DNA from: Paludibacter sp.
GTDB lineage: Bacteria > Bacteroidota > Bacteroidia > Bacteroidales > Paludibacteraceae
Direction of reading: 5' to 3'
Assembly: GCA_030653695.1 (NCBI GenBank)
Contig: JAURYY010000292.1
Location: 1-35,130 of the forward strand
Length of the DNA: 35,130 nucleotides
A program made the position numbers and the translations under genes. Under the pieces are notes generated by a model. That model made no database searches. It was given only the letters and a program-made list of their open reading frames with translations, and had not been told where the DNA came from. Shown here piece after piece: positions 1,069 through 25,181 of this stretch; position 1 is the first letter of the stretch; each line of letters opens with the position of its first letter.

Positions 1069-3210
<2,142 letters not shown>

Positions 3211-3398
3211 GAAAGAAAGCAAGGGGGCATGCCCCCTTGTCCTAGCAAGAAACAAAGAACACAACTTGTCCCAGCTTGTCCCGATTTATCGGGAAGTTAT
3301 AGTGAAAACGAGAAACACATCCTGTCCCAGCTTGTCCCGATTTATCGGGAAGTTATCGGGAAAACCCGAAACAAGAAACGATTTAACTAATATATAAG
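3211..3398. repeat. Two palindromic repeats of the CAGCTTGTCCCGATTTATCGGGAA type
   Basis: Two copies of a unit built on TCCCGATTTATCGGGA lie at 3279-3294 and 3335-3350, each preceded by CCAGCTTG and followed by AGTTAT, with AGAAACA-type spacers. The 36 bases at 3265-3300 are identical to the minus strand of 7249-7284 inside putA. A frame is open through here but reads the same repeat peptide twice in two frames, so I treat it as non-coding. Confidence 0.8.
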
Positions 3399-5120: not shown

Positions 5121-8100
5121 TTATTCCGGCTTTTCGGTTATACTTCCATACCGGTGATATTCAAAAGCAATACTTTGTTCTTTCAAATAATGAAGTAATT
5201 CAAGTCTTCCCTCCATGAGCGGTTTTTGGGTAGCAATATATTTACCGAGTTTTGCCGCTTTTTTATAAATTTCAATCGAAAGTTCGGATGTGCAGGTACG
5301 AATCCGTTCATATTTTTCCATACTTTCAATAAACTCATACTCGGTCTGTAAAATAATTTCAGCGTTAATAGTCATTTTTAATGCATCATAATGCTTATGA
5401 TCACTCGAAATGCTGATAATCAGAGGTGTGCAGGCAATGTTAGCTGCTGCCAGTACCATTAATATATCAGTCAGTTCGTCAGTCGATTGAATACGGAACA
5501 AGATGTTTTTCAGCGGAAGATAACGGAAGGTATTTTGTTCGCCCATCAAATTATTAATATCTTTTTCAACCGAAAAAACTTCCTTGTAATTTTTGAAATA
5601 ACTTTCAATAGCATATTCATATTTTTTTCGGTCATCGTTTCGCAATGTTTCTGCCATAGATTTGAACTCGCCTAATTTACCGGATACTTCTAATTCTTTA
5701 AAATAGCTGGTATTATTGATGTTCACAAAACAGGATACATAATTTGGACCACCGGCTTTTATACCGCCACCAAATGCTGAACGCTTCATTCCTCCAAATG
5801 GCTGTCGATTGACAATGGCACCTGTAATGCCGCGGTTAATATATAGATTTCCTGCTTCAATACTGTTTTTCCACAATTTTTGTTCGCATTCGTCTAAACT
5901 TTGCAAACCCGCTGTCAGCCCAAATTCGGAGTTGTTGGCGAGTTGTATTCCATGTTCAAGATTGTCCATACAAACTACCGACAACATGGGTGCAAACAAT
6001 TCGGTATTAAACGAAAAACTACCGGGTTTAACGCCCCATTTTACACAAGGTTTCAGCATAAAATGTTTTTTATCAACAAATTCGGGTTTTACCAACCACC
6101 ATTCGCCTTCTTCAAGATGATTGATGGCGTGTAGTAAATCTTTATTTTCGGCAGTAATCATTGGACCCACATAATTTCCTCCATTCCAAACGCTTCCGGT
6201 GTGTAGACTGGTTACGGCATCAATCATTTTGGTTTTAAAATCATTATCGTTGAAAATCTTTTTGTCTAATATCAGCAACGAACAAGCCGAGCATTTCTGA
6301 CCTGCATTGCTGAAAGCGGAAGTAATAATATTTTGTATGGCGTGATCGCGGTCGGCACTTGAAGTTACGATGATGGCATTTTTACCGCCTGTTTCGGCCG
6401 AAAGCGGACAAGTCGGGTTATTTTCGAGCAACCGGAAAGCGGTGTCGGTTCCACCGGTCAGAATAATATGCTGTATGGAGGGATGAGCAGTGAGATAATT
6501 CAGCGGTTCGCGACCATCTGTACAAACTACCTGCAATGCATCTTTTGGAACTCCAGCTTCCCAAAAGCATTTGGCAAATTCCCATGCTATCGGAAATGCA
6601 ACAGTGGCAGGTTTCAGAATAACCGTATTTCCGCCGGCTAAAGCAGCTGCAACGCCGCCAACAGGAATTGCAGTCGGGAAATTCCAGGGGGGAATTACAA
6701 GTATTATCCCTTTGGGAGTAATCGAAATTGATTTTAATACTTCAAATTTTTTAAAACTTAACGGATAGTACCTGCAAAAATCAATGGCTTCGGATACTTC
6801 TACATCGCCTTCCATAAATGTTTTTCCGGTGATGGCCGACATGCTTCCAATCAAATGTCCGCGTTTGTTGCACAGATTGTCGGCTGTTTTGTGAAGTATC
6901 AGGTTTCGTTCATCGATGGTGGTTTTACGCCATTTCGAAGTGTCTTTTTCAGCTACATTGACTATTTCTTTCACTTGCTCAAGATTCGAAAGACTTGCTT
7001 CGCAAACGCAGATTTCTTCTTCCTGACAACGGTCGAGATATTTATATTTTTTTTGAGAAATGATTTCTTTATCGCCTATTTGAATCGGAATTTGATAAGG
7101 TTTGTCTGTTGTTGTTTTCATCCAGTTTTTGCGAATCTCGTCAGCCCACAACCGGTTTGGTTTTAAATCGAAATTGGTGTCAGGTTCGTTTTTAAATGTT
7201 TCGCGTTTCGTGTTCAGCGTTTCGTGTTCAGCGTTTCGTGTTTTCCCGATAACTTCCCGATAAATCGGGACAAGCTGGGACAAGCTGTGTTCTGTGTTTC
7301 GGTTTTGTGTGCGTTTTGGTTTTATGTCAACAGAGTCTTTCATTGCGTAAGCCTCCATAAACTGGTTTTTTAGAAAATTCCAGTGTTCGCTGTCGGGTTT
7401 CAGGTTGAATGAATAACTCAGAAAATTATCTGTGCCGGTATTTTCATCGAGCCGCCGAACGAGATACGAAACTGCATTCAGGAAATGTTCGTCTTTTACA
7501 ACGGGCGTGTAAAGAATAATTTGTTTGCCCAAACTACGCATTACTCGTGGAAGGTAATTTGCCATTCCTTCGAGCATTTCATAAGTTACAAATTCTTCCA
7601 CACCATTTTTCTGACATAATAAATACGAATATCCGATACTGAAAAAGTTATGTGTGGCAACACCAACATGTATCACGCTGGCATTTTCGGGTTCTAATGA
7701 ACGTTCGAGTATGTGAAGATGATTGGCATCTACTTTAATTTTTGTGTCCAATATCGGATTTTCCCAACCTTTGATCGATGAAATGATGGATTCCATTTGC
7801 AGATTAGCACCTTTAACCAAGCGCATTTTCAGAGGAGAACCGCCATCGGCGACCCGTTTTTTGGCGAATTCGAGCAGTTCGGTCTGGAAATTCCATGCAT
7901 CGGGAAGGTAAGCCTGAATAACAATACCTGCATAGTAATTTTTAAATTGCGGTAAACTCAACACCGAAATAAAGACTTCTAAAGTAAGTTCGGTATCCTT
8001 GTATTCTTCCATATCAAGGTTTACAAACTTGGCTGTTTTCTCACCTTTTTCGTTTGTGTAAGGATAATCAATTGCCTGCCGGTAAATACGTGTCAGTCGC

Positions 8101-8699
8101 TCGCATAATTCAATTTTGTTTTGCGCATAATTCAAGGCATTTATTTGAGCGTAAATACCTGAAATTTTGATAGAGATATAATTGATTTGCGGATTTTTGA
8201 GTGCTTCGAGATAATGTTCGTAACGGTGATTGGCTTCACCATCGCCCAATACCACTTCGCCTAACAGGTTCACGTTTTGTCCTATTTGTTGGCTTCGTCT
8301 TGCCCCTAAATGTTTGTTCAGAATCGATGCTTTTTCATCGATAATAACATTTGAAGTCTGAGCCCTGAGTTCTTTTTTGAAAATTGGAACAGCAATAAAA
8401 TCGAACCAGTAACCGAAAGTGGTGAACAATTTCATCAAAAAAGCATCGGTTGAACTGAAAAATTCAGGAACACCGTAACGTTCGATCAATATTTTCATCC
8501 TTTGTGCTAATTTTTTATTATCACGTATCTGCGACGATTCGTCCAATAACTTGGACAGTAATATCTTATCGTTTGGATTTTGAATCAAGATAGCATATTT
8601 CTGCTGTTCTTTTTTTTCTTGGGCAGTGATTTCGGTTTCGGTTTTTGCCAGGAATTGTTTTGCCCATTCCACAACTTCGGGAGCTGTTATTTTATTCAT
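5121..8699 (-). CDS. putA: PutA-type proline dehydrogenase / L-glutamate-gamma-semialdehyde dehydrogenase
   Basis: A bifunctional enzyme oxidising proline to glutamate in two steps (FAD-dependent PRODH, then NAD-dependent P5CDH). The preferred ATG at 8699 (MNKITAPEVVEWAKQFL) gives 1192 residues; the frame is open to 8726. PRODH motifs include LRLVKGAN, GVATHN and RRLDENTG, within about residues 60-450. P5CDH covers about 530-1000, with ILVIPPWNFP, ILTGGTDTAF, LSAETGGKNA and catalytic Cys803 in NAGQKCSAC. Beyond about residue 1010 lies a C-terminal segment of some 180 residues resembling the ALDH-like tail of long PutA proteins. The linker at about residues 465-501 is encoded by a palindromic repeat (SQLVPIYREVIGKTRN), absent from the usual family sequence as I know it. 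No DNA-binding N-terminus is seen. A near-match to a -7 box (TTAATTTG) lies 25-32 bases upstream. Confidence 0.95.
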   Translation of the reverse strand: MNKITAPEVVEWAKQFLAKTETEITAQEKKEQQKYAILIQNPNDKILLSKLLDESSQIRDNKKLAQRMKILIERYGVPEFFSSTDAFLMKLFTTFGYWFDFIAVPIFKKELRAQTSNVIIDEKASILNKHLGARRSQQIGQNVNLLGEVVLGDGEANHRYEHYLEALKNPQINYISIKISGIYAQINALNYAQNKIELCERLTRIYRQAIDYPYTNEKGEKTAKFVNLDMEEYKDTELTLEVFISVLSLPQFKNYYAGIVIQAYLPDAWNFQTELLEFAKKRVADGGSPLKMRLVKGANLQMESIISSIKGWENPILDTKIKVDANHLHILERSLEPENASVIHVGVATHNFFSIGYSYLLCQKNGVEEFVTYEMLEGMANYLPRVMRSLGKQIILYTPVVKDEHFLNAVSYLVRRLDENTGTDNFLSYSFNLKPDSEHWNFLKNQFMEAYAMKDSVDIKPKRTQNRNTEHSLSQLVPIYREVIGKTRNAEHETLNTKRETFKNEPDTNFDLKPNRLWADEIRKNWMKTTTDKPYQIPIQIGDKEIISQKKYKYLDRCQEEEICVCEASLSNLEQVKEIVNVAEKDTSKWRKTTIDERNLILHKTADNLCNKRGHLIGSMSAITGKTFMEGDVEVSEAIDFCRYYPLSFKKFEVLKSISITPKGIILVIPPWNFPTAIPVGGVAAALAGGNTVILKPATVAFPIAWEFAKCFWEAGVPKDALQVVCTDGREPLNYLTAHPSIQHIILTGGTDTAFRLLENNPTCPLSAETGGKNAIIVTSSADRDHAIQNIITSAFSNAGQKCSACSLLILDKKIFNDNDFKTKMIDAVTSLHTGSVWNGGNYVGPMITAENKDLLHAINHLEEGEWWLVKPEFVDKKHFMLKPCVKWGVKPGSFSFNTELFAPMLSVVCMDNLEHGIQLANNSEFGLTAGLQSLDECEQKLWKNSIEAGNLYINRGITGAIVNRQPFGGMKRSAFGGGIKAGGPNYVSCFVNINNTSYFKELEVSGKLGEFKSMAETLRNDDRKKYEYAIESYFKNYKEVFSVEKDINNLMGEQNTFRYLPLKNILFRIQSTDELTDILMVLAAANIACTPLIISISSDHKHYDALKMTINAEIILQTEYEFIESMEKYERIRTCTSELSIEIYKKAAKLGKYIATQKPLMEGRLELLHYLKEQSIAFEYHRYGSITEKPE
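7198..7305 (-). repeat. Palindromic repeat inside putA, translated in frame
   Basis: Read on the minus strand it contains CAGCTTGTCCCGATTTATCGGGAA-type sequence followed by three tandem 14-bp units (plus strand 7203-7244, GCGTTTCGTGTTCA type). The core palindrome is 7255-7270. The 36 bases 7249-7284 are identical, on the opposite strand, to 3265-3300 downstream of ligA. It adds roughly 36 residues with no stop or frameshift, between the PRODH and P5CDH domains. Confidence 0.88.
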
Positions 8700-9181
8700 A
8701 AAGTAATAGTTTAATTTTTTGTGCAAATTAACAAAATAATTTTAAAAAAATGAAATAAAAATGAGTAATTATTCAGAATTTAATTTGCCATTTTAATTAA
8801 ATAGTTGAATATTAAGGTTGATGAAATTTTGCGAAATATCAATTTTTTTTAATTCTAATAATCCTTGATGCAGCGGTGCAAAAGGGATTGGTGGATTTAA
8901 ACCTAAAATGAAAGAATAAAGATCTAAAAAACTTATTGCTTGAAACGATGGGGCAAGCAAGGTGGGAGAGTGAAGGTAATAAAAATGGCAGATAAATGTC
9001 TTACAGAGTATTAGGGTCAAATAATGTATTCGTTGACTATCAATGACAAATTTGATAAAATATCTTCGTGTAAATTATTGTAGTTAGTTGAGGGTATTTA
9101 CGCTCATATTGAAAGCAGTTGTCAATAAACCAAAAATCAACAACATGAAAGCAGTTGTAAGTATAAAAATGAAATGATTTT
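8700..9181. other. Gene-free stretch upstream of putA
   Basis: About 480 AT-rich bases between putA and the GNAT gene. A 75-codon minus-strand frame (8793-9020) has no recognisable motif and no start context, and I do not call it. No hairpin or palindromic repeat of the kinds seen elsewhere was noticed. It may hold the putA promoter. Confidence 0.5.
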
Positions 9182-11547: not shown

Positions 11548-13050
11548 ATGAGTGGTGAATCGGTAATTTTGATTATTGTTATATATTTTTTGGTGTTGAT
11601 GCTCATTTCGTTCATTGTAGGACGAAAAAGTACCGATAACGATGCTTTTTTTCTGGGTAACCGCCAGTCGCCATGGTGGATTGTAGCTATCGGAATGGTG
11701 GGTTCATCGGTTTCGGGCGTAAGTTTTGTGTCGGTGCCGGGTATGGTGCGTGGTATCGATTTTACCTATATGCAAACTGTTTTTGGATTCTTTTTTGGTT
11801 ATGTAGTCATTGCAAATGTCTTGTTACCTTTGTATTACAAACTGAATTTGACATCAATTTATACTTATCTCGAACAACGTTTCGGAAAACACACCTACAA
11901 AACCGGAGCCACATACTTTTTGTTGTCCAAAACCATAGGTGCTTCTGCCCGATTGTATGTTGTGGCTTTGATATTGCAAACTCTTGTTTTCGATGCATGG
12001 AATGTGTCTTTTGCGCTTACTGTTTGCGGAACTATTTTGTTGATCTGGCTTTACACTTTCCGCAGCGGGATTAAAACAATTGTCTGGACCGATACACTTC
12101 AGACTTTAGTTATGATAGTAGCCCTTGTTTTACTTGTTGTGCAAATTTCGCAGCAATTGGATTTGAATTTTAGTGAGTTAATTAAAAATCTCATTCACAG
12201 CGACAAAACCCGTATTTTTGTATTTGACGACTGGCACTCGAAGCAAAATTTTTTCAAACAGTTTTTCAGTGGAATATTTATTGCCATAGTGATGACCGGA
12301 CTTGATCAGGATATGATGCAAAAAAATCTGACTTGCCGCAACCTGCGCGATGCTAAAAAAAACATGTATTGGTACGGAATATCATTTGTCCCGGTCAATT
12401 TGTTGTTTCTTACAGTGGGAGCCATGTTACTCATGCTGGCTACTCAAAATAATATTGTTTTGCCTGCTATGGCTGATCAGATTTTGCCTATGTTTGCAAC
12501 AACTTATCTTAGCAAAACGGTTATGGTTTTGTTTGTTATAGGGATTATTGCTGCTGCATTTTCGAGTGCCGATTCAGCTTTAGCGGCACTCACTACTTCG
12601 TTTTCGGTCGATATACTCGATGTGCAGCATCAGGATAAACAAAAAGCCAAACGTACCCGCATGATTATTCATGTGTGCATTTCATTAGTTTTTGCACTGA
12701 TAATTATGGCATTTAAAGCGGTGAACAACAAAAGTGTAATCGATGCCATTTACACCATTGCTTCATATACTTATGGTCCATTGTTGGGTATGTTCACCTT
12801 CGGGTTATTTACCAAGCTGAAAACCAACGATAAAGCAATTCCATACGTTGCCGTTGCTTCACCATTAATTTGTGCAATACTCGATTATGTAAGCAAAACT
12901 TTTTGGGGATTTTCGTTTGGATACGAATTGCTGATGATGAATGGATTCTTCACATTTATAGGAATGTTGATATTTTCCAACATCAACCCATCAACCCATC
13001 AACCAATAAACATTCACCATTCACCTCCCGATAGCTATCGGGACCATTAA
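11548..13050 (+). CDS. Sodium:solute symporter (SSS/SLC5 family), tail made of repeat sequence
   Basis: A 500-residue inner-membrane transporter with about 13 hydrophobic segments. Family features include the opening LIIVIYFLVLMLISFIVGR, the FFLGNRQSPWWIVAIGMVGSSVSGVSFVSVPG region that carries the sodium-site helices, and GLDQDMMQKNLTCR in the middle. The SSADSALAALTTSFSVDI block is typical of the helix 8 sodium site. The solute cannot be assigned. The last 23 or so residues (from NINPSTHQP to PPDSYRDH) are read from ACCCATCA/ACCATTC repeats and a TCCCGATAGCTATCGGGA palindrome. The stop TAA itself is part of an ACCATTAA unit, so the native C-terminus has probably been replaced or extended. 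engB follows 78 bases later, across more of the same repeats. Confidence 0.92.
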   Translation: MSGESVILIIVIYFLVLMLISFIVGRKSTDNDAFFLGNRQSPWWIVAIGMVGSSVSGVSFVSVPGMVRGIDFTYMQTVFGFFFGYVVIANVLLPLYYKLNLTSIYTYLEQRFGKHTYKTGATYFLLSKTIGASARLYVVALILQTLVFDAWNVSFALTVCGTILLIWLYTFRSGIKTIVWTDTLQTLVMIVALVLLVVQISQQLDLNFSELIKNLIHSDKTRIFVFDDWHSKQNFFKQFFSGIFIAIVMTGLDQDMMQKNLTCRNLRDAKKNMYWYGISFVPVNLLFLTVGAMLLMLATQNNIVLPAMADQILPMFATTYLSKTVMVLFVIGIIAAAFSSADSALAALTTSFSVDILDVQHQDKQKAKRTRMIIHVCISLVFALIIMAFKAVNNKSVIDAIYTIASYTYGPLLGMFTFGLFTKLKTNDKAIPYVAVASPLICAILDYVSKTFWGFSFGYELLMMNGFFTFIGMLIFSNINPSTHQPINIHHSPPDSYRDH

Positions 13051-20219: not shown

Positions 20220-20960
20220 ATGAAAGAAATGATACGAATAATTTCCATCCCCTTTTCCATTCTGGCATACCTTTGGTTTATAGTTTTTTTATGTATTTTT
20301 CATCCTATACAATGGTTATGCTTCAAAATCGCAGGATATCAGGCGCACAAACGCAGTGTTGATAGTTTGGTTTTTTTTCTGATGGGTACACTGAAATTAT
20401 TATTATCCACAACCAAATGCAAAAACAGGGAACTTATTCCCCAAAATAAACCACTGATTTTTGTATCCAATCATCAGGGTACTTTCGATATAGTCGGAAT
20501 GCAATGGTACTTTCGTAAATTTCACCCTAAGTTTGTAAGTAAAATAGAATTAACCAAAGGGGTTCCGAGTATTTCGTATAATCTGCGCAATGGCGGGTCA
20601 GTACTTATCGACCGCAATGATCCCAGGCAGGCTTTGCCCGAATTGAAAAAAATGGGCGAATATATTCAAAAATACGGGCGATCGGTAATAATTTACCCAG
20701 AAGGTACCCGCACAAAAGACGGTAAACCTAAAGATTTTGCCCCCAACGGACTTAAAATCCTCTGCAAATATGCACCGGATGCTTTGATAGTTCCGGTAAC
20801 TATTAACAATTCGTGGAAAGTGTTCCGCTATGGCTCTTTCCCACTCGGGTTGGGAAATCGACTTACCTTTACCGTGCATCCACCCATAGCAGTTAACGAA
20901 ACCGATTTTAACACTTTGTTCGAGCAAACAGAAAAAGTGATTATTGAGGCAATAGTTTGA
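20220..20960 (+). CDS. plsC: 1-acyl-sn-glycerol-3-phosphate acyltransferase PlsC
   Basis: It acylates lysophosphatidic acid to phosphatidic acid in phospholipid synthesis at the inner membrane. The 246 residues begin with a hydrophobic anchor (about 10-35). The catalytic HX4D motif is His85 and Asp90 in NHQGTFD, and the glycerol-phosphate-binding motif is YPEGTR around Glu161. The later VPVTINNSW block also matches the family. It stands alone, with its own -7 box, and is followed by a palindromic repeat 14 bases past its stop. Confidence 0.93.
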   Translation: MKEMIRIISIPFSILAYLWFIVFLCIFHPIQWLCFKIAGYQAHKRSVDSLVFFLMGTLKLLLSTTKCKNRELIPQNKPLIFVSNHQGTFDIVGMQWYFRKFHPKFVSKIELTKGVPSISYNLRNGGSVLIDRNDPRQALPELKKMGEYIQKYGRSVIIYPEGTRTKDGKPKDFAPNGLKILCKYAPDALIVPVTINNSWKVFRYGSFPLGLGNRLTFTVHPPIAVNETDFNTLFEQTEKVIIEAIV

Positions 20961-20974
20961 AAATTCAGGTTTGT

Positions 20975-21020
20975 CCCGTCCCGATTCCCGTCCCGATAGC
21001 TATCGGGAATCGGGACGGGA
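20975..21020. repeat. Palindromic repeat, TCCCGATAGCTATCGGGA family
   Basis: CCCGTCCCGATTCCCG, then the core palindrome CCCGATAGCTATCGGG, then AATCGGGACGGGA: nearly perfect over 46 bp. Placed right after plsC it could serve as a terminator-like or mRNA-stabilising hairpin. Confidence 0.85.
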
Positions 21021-21093
21021 TTGAAAGTTTGAAGAGTTTAAAAGTTTGAAGGGTTTGAAAGTTTCGATAAATTCACTTTCGCAAGAAATTTTC

Positions 21094-21405
21094 GATTCCT
21101 CACTTCAAAAACTTCACTTCGTTCTGTTTTTTTGTTCGGAATAACAGGTCGTATTCGGTGTTTTGAGGGTGAAATATGGGCGGCAAAGCCGCCCATATTT
21201 CACCCTCTTTATTAATAAGTCGCTCTGTCATTCCGAAGCGAAGCGAGGAATCTCAGGTTTGTTTATTGAAGTCGCTCTGTCGTTCAGAAGCGAAGCGAGG
21301 AATTTCAGTCCTCTCATCCGACAGACCGCCTGAAAAAGCCGTCAGTCGGTGTTCGGCGCAGGAGCAACAGACGGATTCTTTATTTTTTCCGTCTGTTGCG
21401 TTGGT
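21094..21405. repeat. Hairpin-rich composite element, copy A
   Basis: It begins GATTCCTCACTTCAAAAA and TTGTTCGGAAT. A perfect 20-bp stem follows (21165-21184 with 21188-21207, loop AAA). Next is ATTAATAAGTCG and two CATTCCGAAGCGAAGCGAGG-type repeats near 21229 and 21277. Then come a CCGAC/GTCGG pair (21318-21322, 21345-21349) and a 10-bp hairpin CAACAGACGG (21365-21374) with CCGTCTGTTG (21389-21398), ending in GCGTTGGT. A frame through it reads a low-complexity peptide typical of translated repeats, and no gene is called. See copy B. Confidence 0.8.
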
Positions 21406-21518
21406 AAAGAGTTGTAGTTAGTAAGGGACAAGCGAAATCCTTATCGCTTGACGAAACCTCGCCAAACGCTTTCAGGTCTCGTATCTCAACGCTGAAATGA
21501 TTGCAGGTGGAAAACAGA

Positions 21519-21861
21519 GATTCCTCACTTCAAAAAACTCCACTTCATTCCGTTTTTTTTTGTTCGGAATGACAGGTCATTTTTAGTATGTAAGGAGGGA
21601 ATAAATATGAGCGGCGAAGCCGCTCATATTTATTCCCTCCTTATTAATAAGTCGTTCTGTCTTTCCGATTCTTCATTACATTCTGAATGACATGAAGCGA
21701 GGAATCACTTATTTGTTAAAAATGTTTAATATCATTCCCAAAGAGACAGAGTTGGAACTCTATCATCCCGAGGTTTTCATCCGAATGACCGCCCGAAGCG
21801 GTCAGTCGGTGTTCGCAGCGCAGCAACTGACCGGTTTTTTTTCCGGTCTGTTGCGTTGGTT
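21519..21861. repeat. Hairpin-rich composite element, copy B
   Basis: A diverged second copy of 21094-21405 with the same order of parts. GATTCCTCACTTCAAAAAA and TTGTTCGGAAT are followed by a perfect 25-bp stem (21591-21615 with 21619-21643, loop GAA) and ATTAATAAGTCG. Then come a diverged GAAGCGAGGAATC repeat, a TGACCGC/GCGGTCA hairpin (21786-21804) and CAACTGACCGG (21824-21834), which pairs with 21843-21853 with one mismatch around a T8 loop, ending GCGTTGGT. The stem sequence differs from copy A at many positions, but both stems pair perfectly. Confidence 0.8.
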
Positions 21862-21911
21862 AATGGAACTATCGAAATCCCGAAGAATATAGACTCTTCA
21901 AACTCTCAAAA

Positions 21912-21934
21912 ACGCGAAACGCGAAACGCGAAAC
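21912..21934. repeat. Short ACGCGAA tandem repeat
   Basis: Three 7-8 bp ACGCGAA units. They resemble the GCGTTTCGTGTTCA units within putA read on the other strand. Confidence 0.6.
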
Positions 21935-21960
21935 ATTTTTGACTTGTCGTTAAAAAATAG

Positions 21961-21968
21961 TACTTTTG
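21961..21968 (+). promoter_or_regulatory. -7 box for the M16 peptidase operon
   Basis: TACTTTTG, 22 bases before the preferred ATG 21991. This argues against the upstream TTG at 21973 as the start. Confidence 0.6.
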
Positions 21969-21990
21969 CAGCTTGTTTAAAAATAACGGA

Positions 21991-25113: not shown

Positions 25114-25181
25114 TCCCGATAGCGTTCGACTGAGCGTTCGACTGAGCTCACGCCGAAGTCTATCGCCGAAGTCTATCGGGA
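25114..25181. repeat. Core palindrome interrupted by a GTTCGACTGAG / ACGCCGAAGTC unit
   Basis: TCCCGATAG (25114-25122) and CTATCGGGA (25173-25181) are the two halves of the core palindrome found elsewhere uninterrupted. Between them are two GCGTTCGACTGA units, AGCTCACGCCGAAGT and a further CTATCGCCGAAGT. The right flank AAAGAATAAAGAC is the reverse complement of the GTCTTTATTCTTT-like flank seen at other copies. Confidence 0.85.

Follow-up and report, generated by a model that had tools for sequence, protein, structure and literature searches.

Rickettsia palindromic elements are inserted in frame in unrelated protein genes, and the account drawn on here in part (PMC10969869) describes them as about 150 bp long, encoding a conserved peptide and affecting many genes. 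Several species also carry REPs of the GTAG and CGTC types within coding sequence (Di Nocera et al. 2013, PMC3733652). The portion of that paper used here places many intragenic REPs in replication and repair genes, notes that REPs occupy nearly the same position in the recB genes of two Xanthomonas species, and assigns CGTC REPs a stem of 8-9 bp that starts with complementary A and T; its authors suggest flexible linkers or loops for the intragenic copies. The TAACTGA 7-nt direct repeats are mostly intergenic, with some in ORFs, and their hosts are Beggiatoaceae, Cyanobacteria and five Bacteroidetes including Paludibacter propionicigenes (MacGregor 2015, PMC4679880); according to the portion of that report used here, such repeats might be tolerated between the subunits of modular proteins.

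There is thus precedent both for translated palindromes (in Rickettsia and in other bacteria with REPs) and for heptamers within ORFs (in the Beggiatoaceae). What is new here is that the same two interdomain joints, one in PutA and one in a KdsA-KdsC fusion, have been repeatedly rewritten across a genus by unrelated repeats, mostly heptamers. Among the titles and abstracts searched, which leave subscription journals mostly uncovered, none concerned repeat-built PutA or KdsA-KdsC linkers.

The locus described below resembles the Rickettsia elements in that the insertion is in frame in a protein gene and its palindrome block is absent from a close relative (genome G026). The sequence-only reading that preceded this work had drawn the same comparison, which is apt as to how the insertion works; however, what was inserted combines a palindrome with the heptamer array that surrounds it. 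Unlike a 150-bp element with a conserved peptide, it measures 59-68 nt, with a core of 16-18 nt set among heptamers; two genes are mainly affected, and the same site holds unrelated repeats in different species. Intragenic REPs are palindromes only, whereas here heptamer arrays dominate and recur genus-wide at two interdomain joints. The TAACTGA system has one heptamer word, found in ORFs mainly near their ends, and the replacement of orthologous linkers is not among the phenomena reported in the portion of the source used here.

The window, meaning the whole stretch of 35,130 nucleotides that was analysed, is contig C157 of a 3.69 Mb genome in 383 contigs. By PutA, the named loci nearest to it belong to the Bacteroidales, and roughly half of the first dozen carry the label Paludibacter. 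The relevant features are as follows; the last is on a locus outside the window.

1123..3210, plus strand: ligA, NAD-dependent DNA ligase
3249..3316, plus strand: first spacer copy, downstream of ligA
3306..3372, plus strand: second ligA-spacer copy, a 56-nt tandem repeat of the first copy
5121..8699, minus strand: putA, bifunctional proline dehydrogenase / P5C dehydrogenase, encoding 1192 aa if translation starts at the likely ATG
7194..7298, minus strand: repeat-coded part of the PutA interdomain linker, NTEHSLSQLVPIYREVIGKTRNAEHETLNTKRETF, residues 477-511 of P0001
7198..7243, minus strand: heptamer array (14-bp units) coding the NAEHETLNTKRETF part of the PutA linker
7233..7300, minus strand: composite element (palindrome plus heptamer flanks), inverted copy of the ligA spacer
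7255..7270, no strand assigned: palindrome core TCCCGATAAATCGGGA in putA
12981..13050, plus strand: C-terminal tail of a sodium:solute symporter, with the same repeat kinds as the putA linker, terminal and not interior
L188:16899-18338, minus strand: KdsA-KdsC fusion gene

The end of the symporter gene (12981-13050), coding its last residues and the stop, is composed of CATCAACC/CATTCACC repeats together with a TCCCGATAGCTATCGGGA palindrome, and in a similar gene of G024 (L291) the frame stops right where its heptamer array starts. Elsewhere in the window, a long spacer (20960-21970) carries repeats resembling GAAGCGAGGAATCTCAG and, at 21591-21643, an inverted repeat that is perfect over 25 nt, and 12-13-nt tandem units at 860-930 (CTTCGGCGTGAG) recur inverted 24 kb away at 25121-25178 (CAGTCGAACGC).

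The putA gene is one open frame, 5121-8726 on the minus strand (1201 aa, opened by a TTG at 8726), and the best match of its product among solved structures is 5ux5, a PutA. Pfam places proline dehydrogenase at residues 138-437 and aldehyde dehydrogenase at 561-1003, so the repeat-coded segment falls between the two domains, as had been proposed from the sequence. The frame and catalytic motifs, noted earlier as intact, are indeed so: most residues of the RRLDEN, ETGGKN and GQKCS motifs are invariant in 37 aligned sequences, an alignment that excluded L083, L062 and L097. An AlphaFold2 model of the ATG-started protein, built with 37 sequences, has a mean pLDDT of 82.4. Residues 472-497 in this numbering fall below 50 and lack secondary structure; five further segments also have a pLDDT below 50, and a low linker value is partly expected, because the insert has few aligned homologues. 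The repeat-coded linker is thus predicted to be disordered.

The opposite-strand identity that first drew attention to this gene stands: 7249-7284 on the minus strand equals 3265-3300 on the plus strand over 36 nt. This identity sits within a larger, 59-68-nt element, a palindrome nested in a GAAACAC-type heptamer array and read in frame in the PutA interdomain linker. Ungapped extension gives 68 nt at 91% with the first spacer copy (3249-3316 / 7233-7300), and the second near-copy that had been claimed in the ligA spacer aligns over 59 nt at 95% (3314-3372 / 7233-7291). The 14-bp tandem units were also correctly recognised; they occupy 7203-7242 in 2.9 copies at 100%, each unit being a heptamer pair. 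The whole block is made of AAACACA-like heptamers, the palindrome and GAAAC heptamers. It occurs also in spacers of the same genome and in linkers of two other species, one composite element being common to the PutA of G000 and G031 and the Kds linker of G022. The putA core TTGTCCCGATTTATCGGG has 4 exact copies in the genome, and the clustering of 3 of these within 4 kb on the window contig suggests local copying.

How much the repeats have added needs a relative for comparison. The sequence-only reading had counted some 36 added residues. About 35 are indeed repeat-coded, but the linker measures 48 aa from anchor to anchor against 27 aa in the closest relative, G026, a net gain of 21 residues; the G026 linker is itself coded by heptamers, without the palindrome. 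The expectation that homologues would lack the segment held for the palindrome in this relative, but several other relatives hold other repeats there. For example, SVVGS heptamers are found in the PutA linkers of G009 and G017, CTTTCAA heptamers in that of G019, and a palindrome like GTAGAGACG...CGTCTCTAC in those of G013 and G025. Exact GTAGAGACG-pattern palindromes are present in 27 of the 48 genus genomes; a pattern search found none in the genomes of G013, G025, G004 and G021, and the G013 palindrome had no second locus in its own genome at the sensitivity used. The link for G013 and G025 is therefore drawn from likeness to the copies of other species. Part of the G009 PutA linker, by comparison, has 38 matches in the G009 genome, counting its own position.

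Within the genus the variable part of the linker ranges from 12 to 73 aa, and it is 12-16 aa in 53 of 56 distinct PutA loci below 67% identity, the others having 18, 24 and 32 aa. The 32-aa case, a distant PutA from a Dysgonamonadaceae MAG (L085), shows no 7-nt period.

The putA case is not isolated, and reading it as such proved incomplete: in the same genome the linker of the KdsA-KdsC fusion likewise consists of a palindrome and heptamers. Both halves lie in one open frame in 26 of the 48 genus genomes (in G025 only in part). In an order-wide draw of 119 genomes, 108 of which gave matches, a one-frame fusion was found only here and in G088, the one other member of the family, so that within that draw the fusion is confined to the family. 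The repeats in the linker vary by species: G017 has GACTACC heptamers, G008 two GTAGAGACG-like palindromes and G022 a putA-type element. Altogether the Kds linker is repeat-built in 19 of the 26 genus species tested; in the other 7 no repeat exceeded the threshold, three of these having been tested by period only. We considered whether repeats made the fusion itself, which is unsupported: G012, G035, G068, G030, G034 and the sister-genus G088 are fused without a 7-nt period.

A 7-nt period is a useful mark of repeats arising at the DNA level, because codons impose no such period. Lag 7 stands alone as the best lag in 15 of 22 genus Kds linkers and in 10 of 27 genus PutA linkers, the remaining 17 PutA linkers having no unique 7-nt period. 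Among the 56 distinct distant PutA loci (alignment-based, below 67% identity) none reached a period score of 8; the same count, which covered products of at least 600 aa, includes 25 of the 27 genus PutA loci, and 9 of these score at least 8. When each linker was set against windows of its own size from the same gene, 18 of 22 Kds linkers and 13 of 55 PutA linkers lay above 99% by period or by hairpin. For PutA these linkers come from 109 loci, 41 without the linker motif, leaving 68 of which 55 are distinct; L043 ends at a contig edge. For Kds, 6 of 28 loci missed the motif: L242 and L243 match the KdsC half alone, and L222, L237, L238 and L241 were tested by period only. These four further linkers comprise a strong array in G031 and no strong array in G068, G030 and G034.

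We surveyed 841 kb for lag-7 arrays, in stretches partly chosen for holding putA, kds or query matches and containing 554 ORFs of at least 150 aa. At a threshold of 15 there are 57 arrays: 35 are noncoding, as befits spacer-type repeats that lie mostly outside genes, 11 are terminal or overlapping, and all 11 interior ones are in the two linkers (PutA 7, Kds 4). The window's own putA array scores 13 and so falls below this threshold. Other lags gave 1 array (lag 6), 3 (lag 9), 3 (lag 10) and 22 (lag 8), and none of the 22 was interior. A translated search for other invaded genes, as earlier proposed, returned peptide matches in 22 of the 48 genomes. The 20 places fetched include interior arrays in two other proteins, one with a SpoIID domain (G024, L277:1519-3003) and a DNA methylase (G062, L282:692-2845), as well as terminal or upstream cases. 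RNA pseudouridine synthases of G022 and G024 (L278, L283) have C-terminal tails made of heptamers.

Linker arrays are not detectably less perfect than noncoding ones (11 vs 35, p=0.53), nor more often stop-free. Genomes rich in GAAACAC (at least 10 peptide matches) carry this heptamer in the two linkers in 5 of 9 cases, against 1 of 27 for the rest (Fisher p=0.0018, uncorrected for relatedness). The signal from shared 12-mers, judged against backgrounds of 13-235 kb, was weak; only 4 of 18 PutA and 3 of 20 Kds linkers stand out.

We propose, with a probability of roughly 80%, that dispersed repeats spread at the DNA level and survive in genes mainly where they are in frame, stop-free and at unstructured joints. 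The genus genomes carry dispersed, mostly non-coding heptamer tandem arrays together with short palindromes, the latter often inside arrays. These would be copied or expanded by slippage, recombination or template switching between similar arrays, a mechanism that, like the direction of copying, we infer from the sequences. Copies inside genes would mostly be lost, judging from their rarity. An in-frame, stop-free copy would be tolerated at the PRODH-P5CDH joint of PutA and at the KdsA-KdsC joint because these are unstructured, and as a consequence the joints may be rewritten repeatedly, often with a repeat found elsewhere in the genome. This putA linker probably had heptamers first, as in G026, and then received a palindrome-bearing block like that in the ligA spacer 4 kb away. 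Translated in the cell, as it presumably is, the segment would be close to neutral, with a probably small effect on the enzymes; repeat DNA, and not the needs of the protein, seems to dictate the hinge. The earlier suggestion of a mostly intergenic repeat read through in a flexible linker is supported by these data, but was incomplete, as the site is hit recurrently by other repeat families.

A second explanation is that a REP- or MITE-like palindromic element was moved into putA by a RAYT or other transposase, as in Rickettsia, the heptamers being incidental. Exact TCCCGATN4ATCGGGA palindromes number 130 in the genome against 0 for the control, and from these and the 4 exact putA-core copies mobility may be inferred. 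Of 44 distinct sites sampled from the 130 in the order of the contigs, 39 fall outside ORFs of at least 80 aa; the other 5 are inside such ORFs, all near an ORF end. In 41 of 65 sites the TCCCGAT arm has CG or TG directly before it, on one side or on both, giving CGTC or TGTC like the CGTC REP tag (PMC3733652, as far as the portion used here describes it), a count made without a shuffled control; unlike in a CGTC REP, the arms TCCCGAT/ATCGGGA are 7 nt and no AT follows the tag. The genome also has 7 matches to the transposase family PF01797. However, only 1 of the 6 matches examined has a TCCCGAT palindrome within 700 nt, which leaves a RAYT link unsupported and differs from GTAG REPs, which flank their own RAYT gene. 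Furthermore, the PutA linkers of G026, G005, G009 and G017 have heptamers without this palindrome, and 17 of 65 palindromes sit in heptamer tracts, a higher share than among control spacers (54 of 1060). We therefore regard a transposed palindrome as an unlikely primary cause.

That the linkers are selected, with the repeats providing a hydrophilic spacer whose length benefits the enzymes, would agree with the use of the same joints in many species and with the predicted disorder. Yet peptides, lengths and repeat families differ even among close species, and most of the distant relatives have a variable part of 12-16 aa, which makes this account improbable.

The arrays could also be reversible switches, in which one heptamer more or less changes the reading frame and cuts off the second catalytic domain. 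If so, PRODH-only or KdsA-only products would result, as at contingency loci. In putA a stop does follow the last array units after 0 codons in one shifted frame and after 7 in the other, and the linker arrays are, as noted above, not detectably less perfect than noncoding ones. Minority frame variants would not show in consensus assemblies. No frame break was seen at the linker in the PutA and Kds rows inspected, though the G020 contig ends there, and we consider switching very doubtful. An artefact of assembly or binning, in a metagenome-assembled genome as fragmented as this one, is hardly credible: the 383 contigs and the G020 contig that ends right at the PutA linker might suggest it, repeats being what makes assemblies break, but frame and flanks are intact and the same kind of linker is found at the same site in other genomes.

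The situation at these two joints amounts to a natural replicate experiment, in which the same joints have received unrelated non-coding repeats in dozens of species. It makes testable how far DNA-level processes, as opposed to protein selection, shape interdomain linkers, and it offers a route from spacer DNA to protein. It is also a warning that hypervariable linkers of this kind are not to be read as functional motifs.
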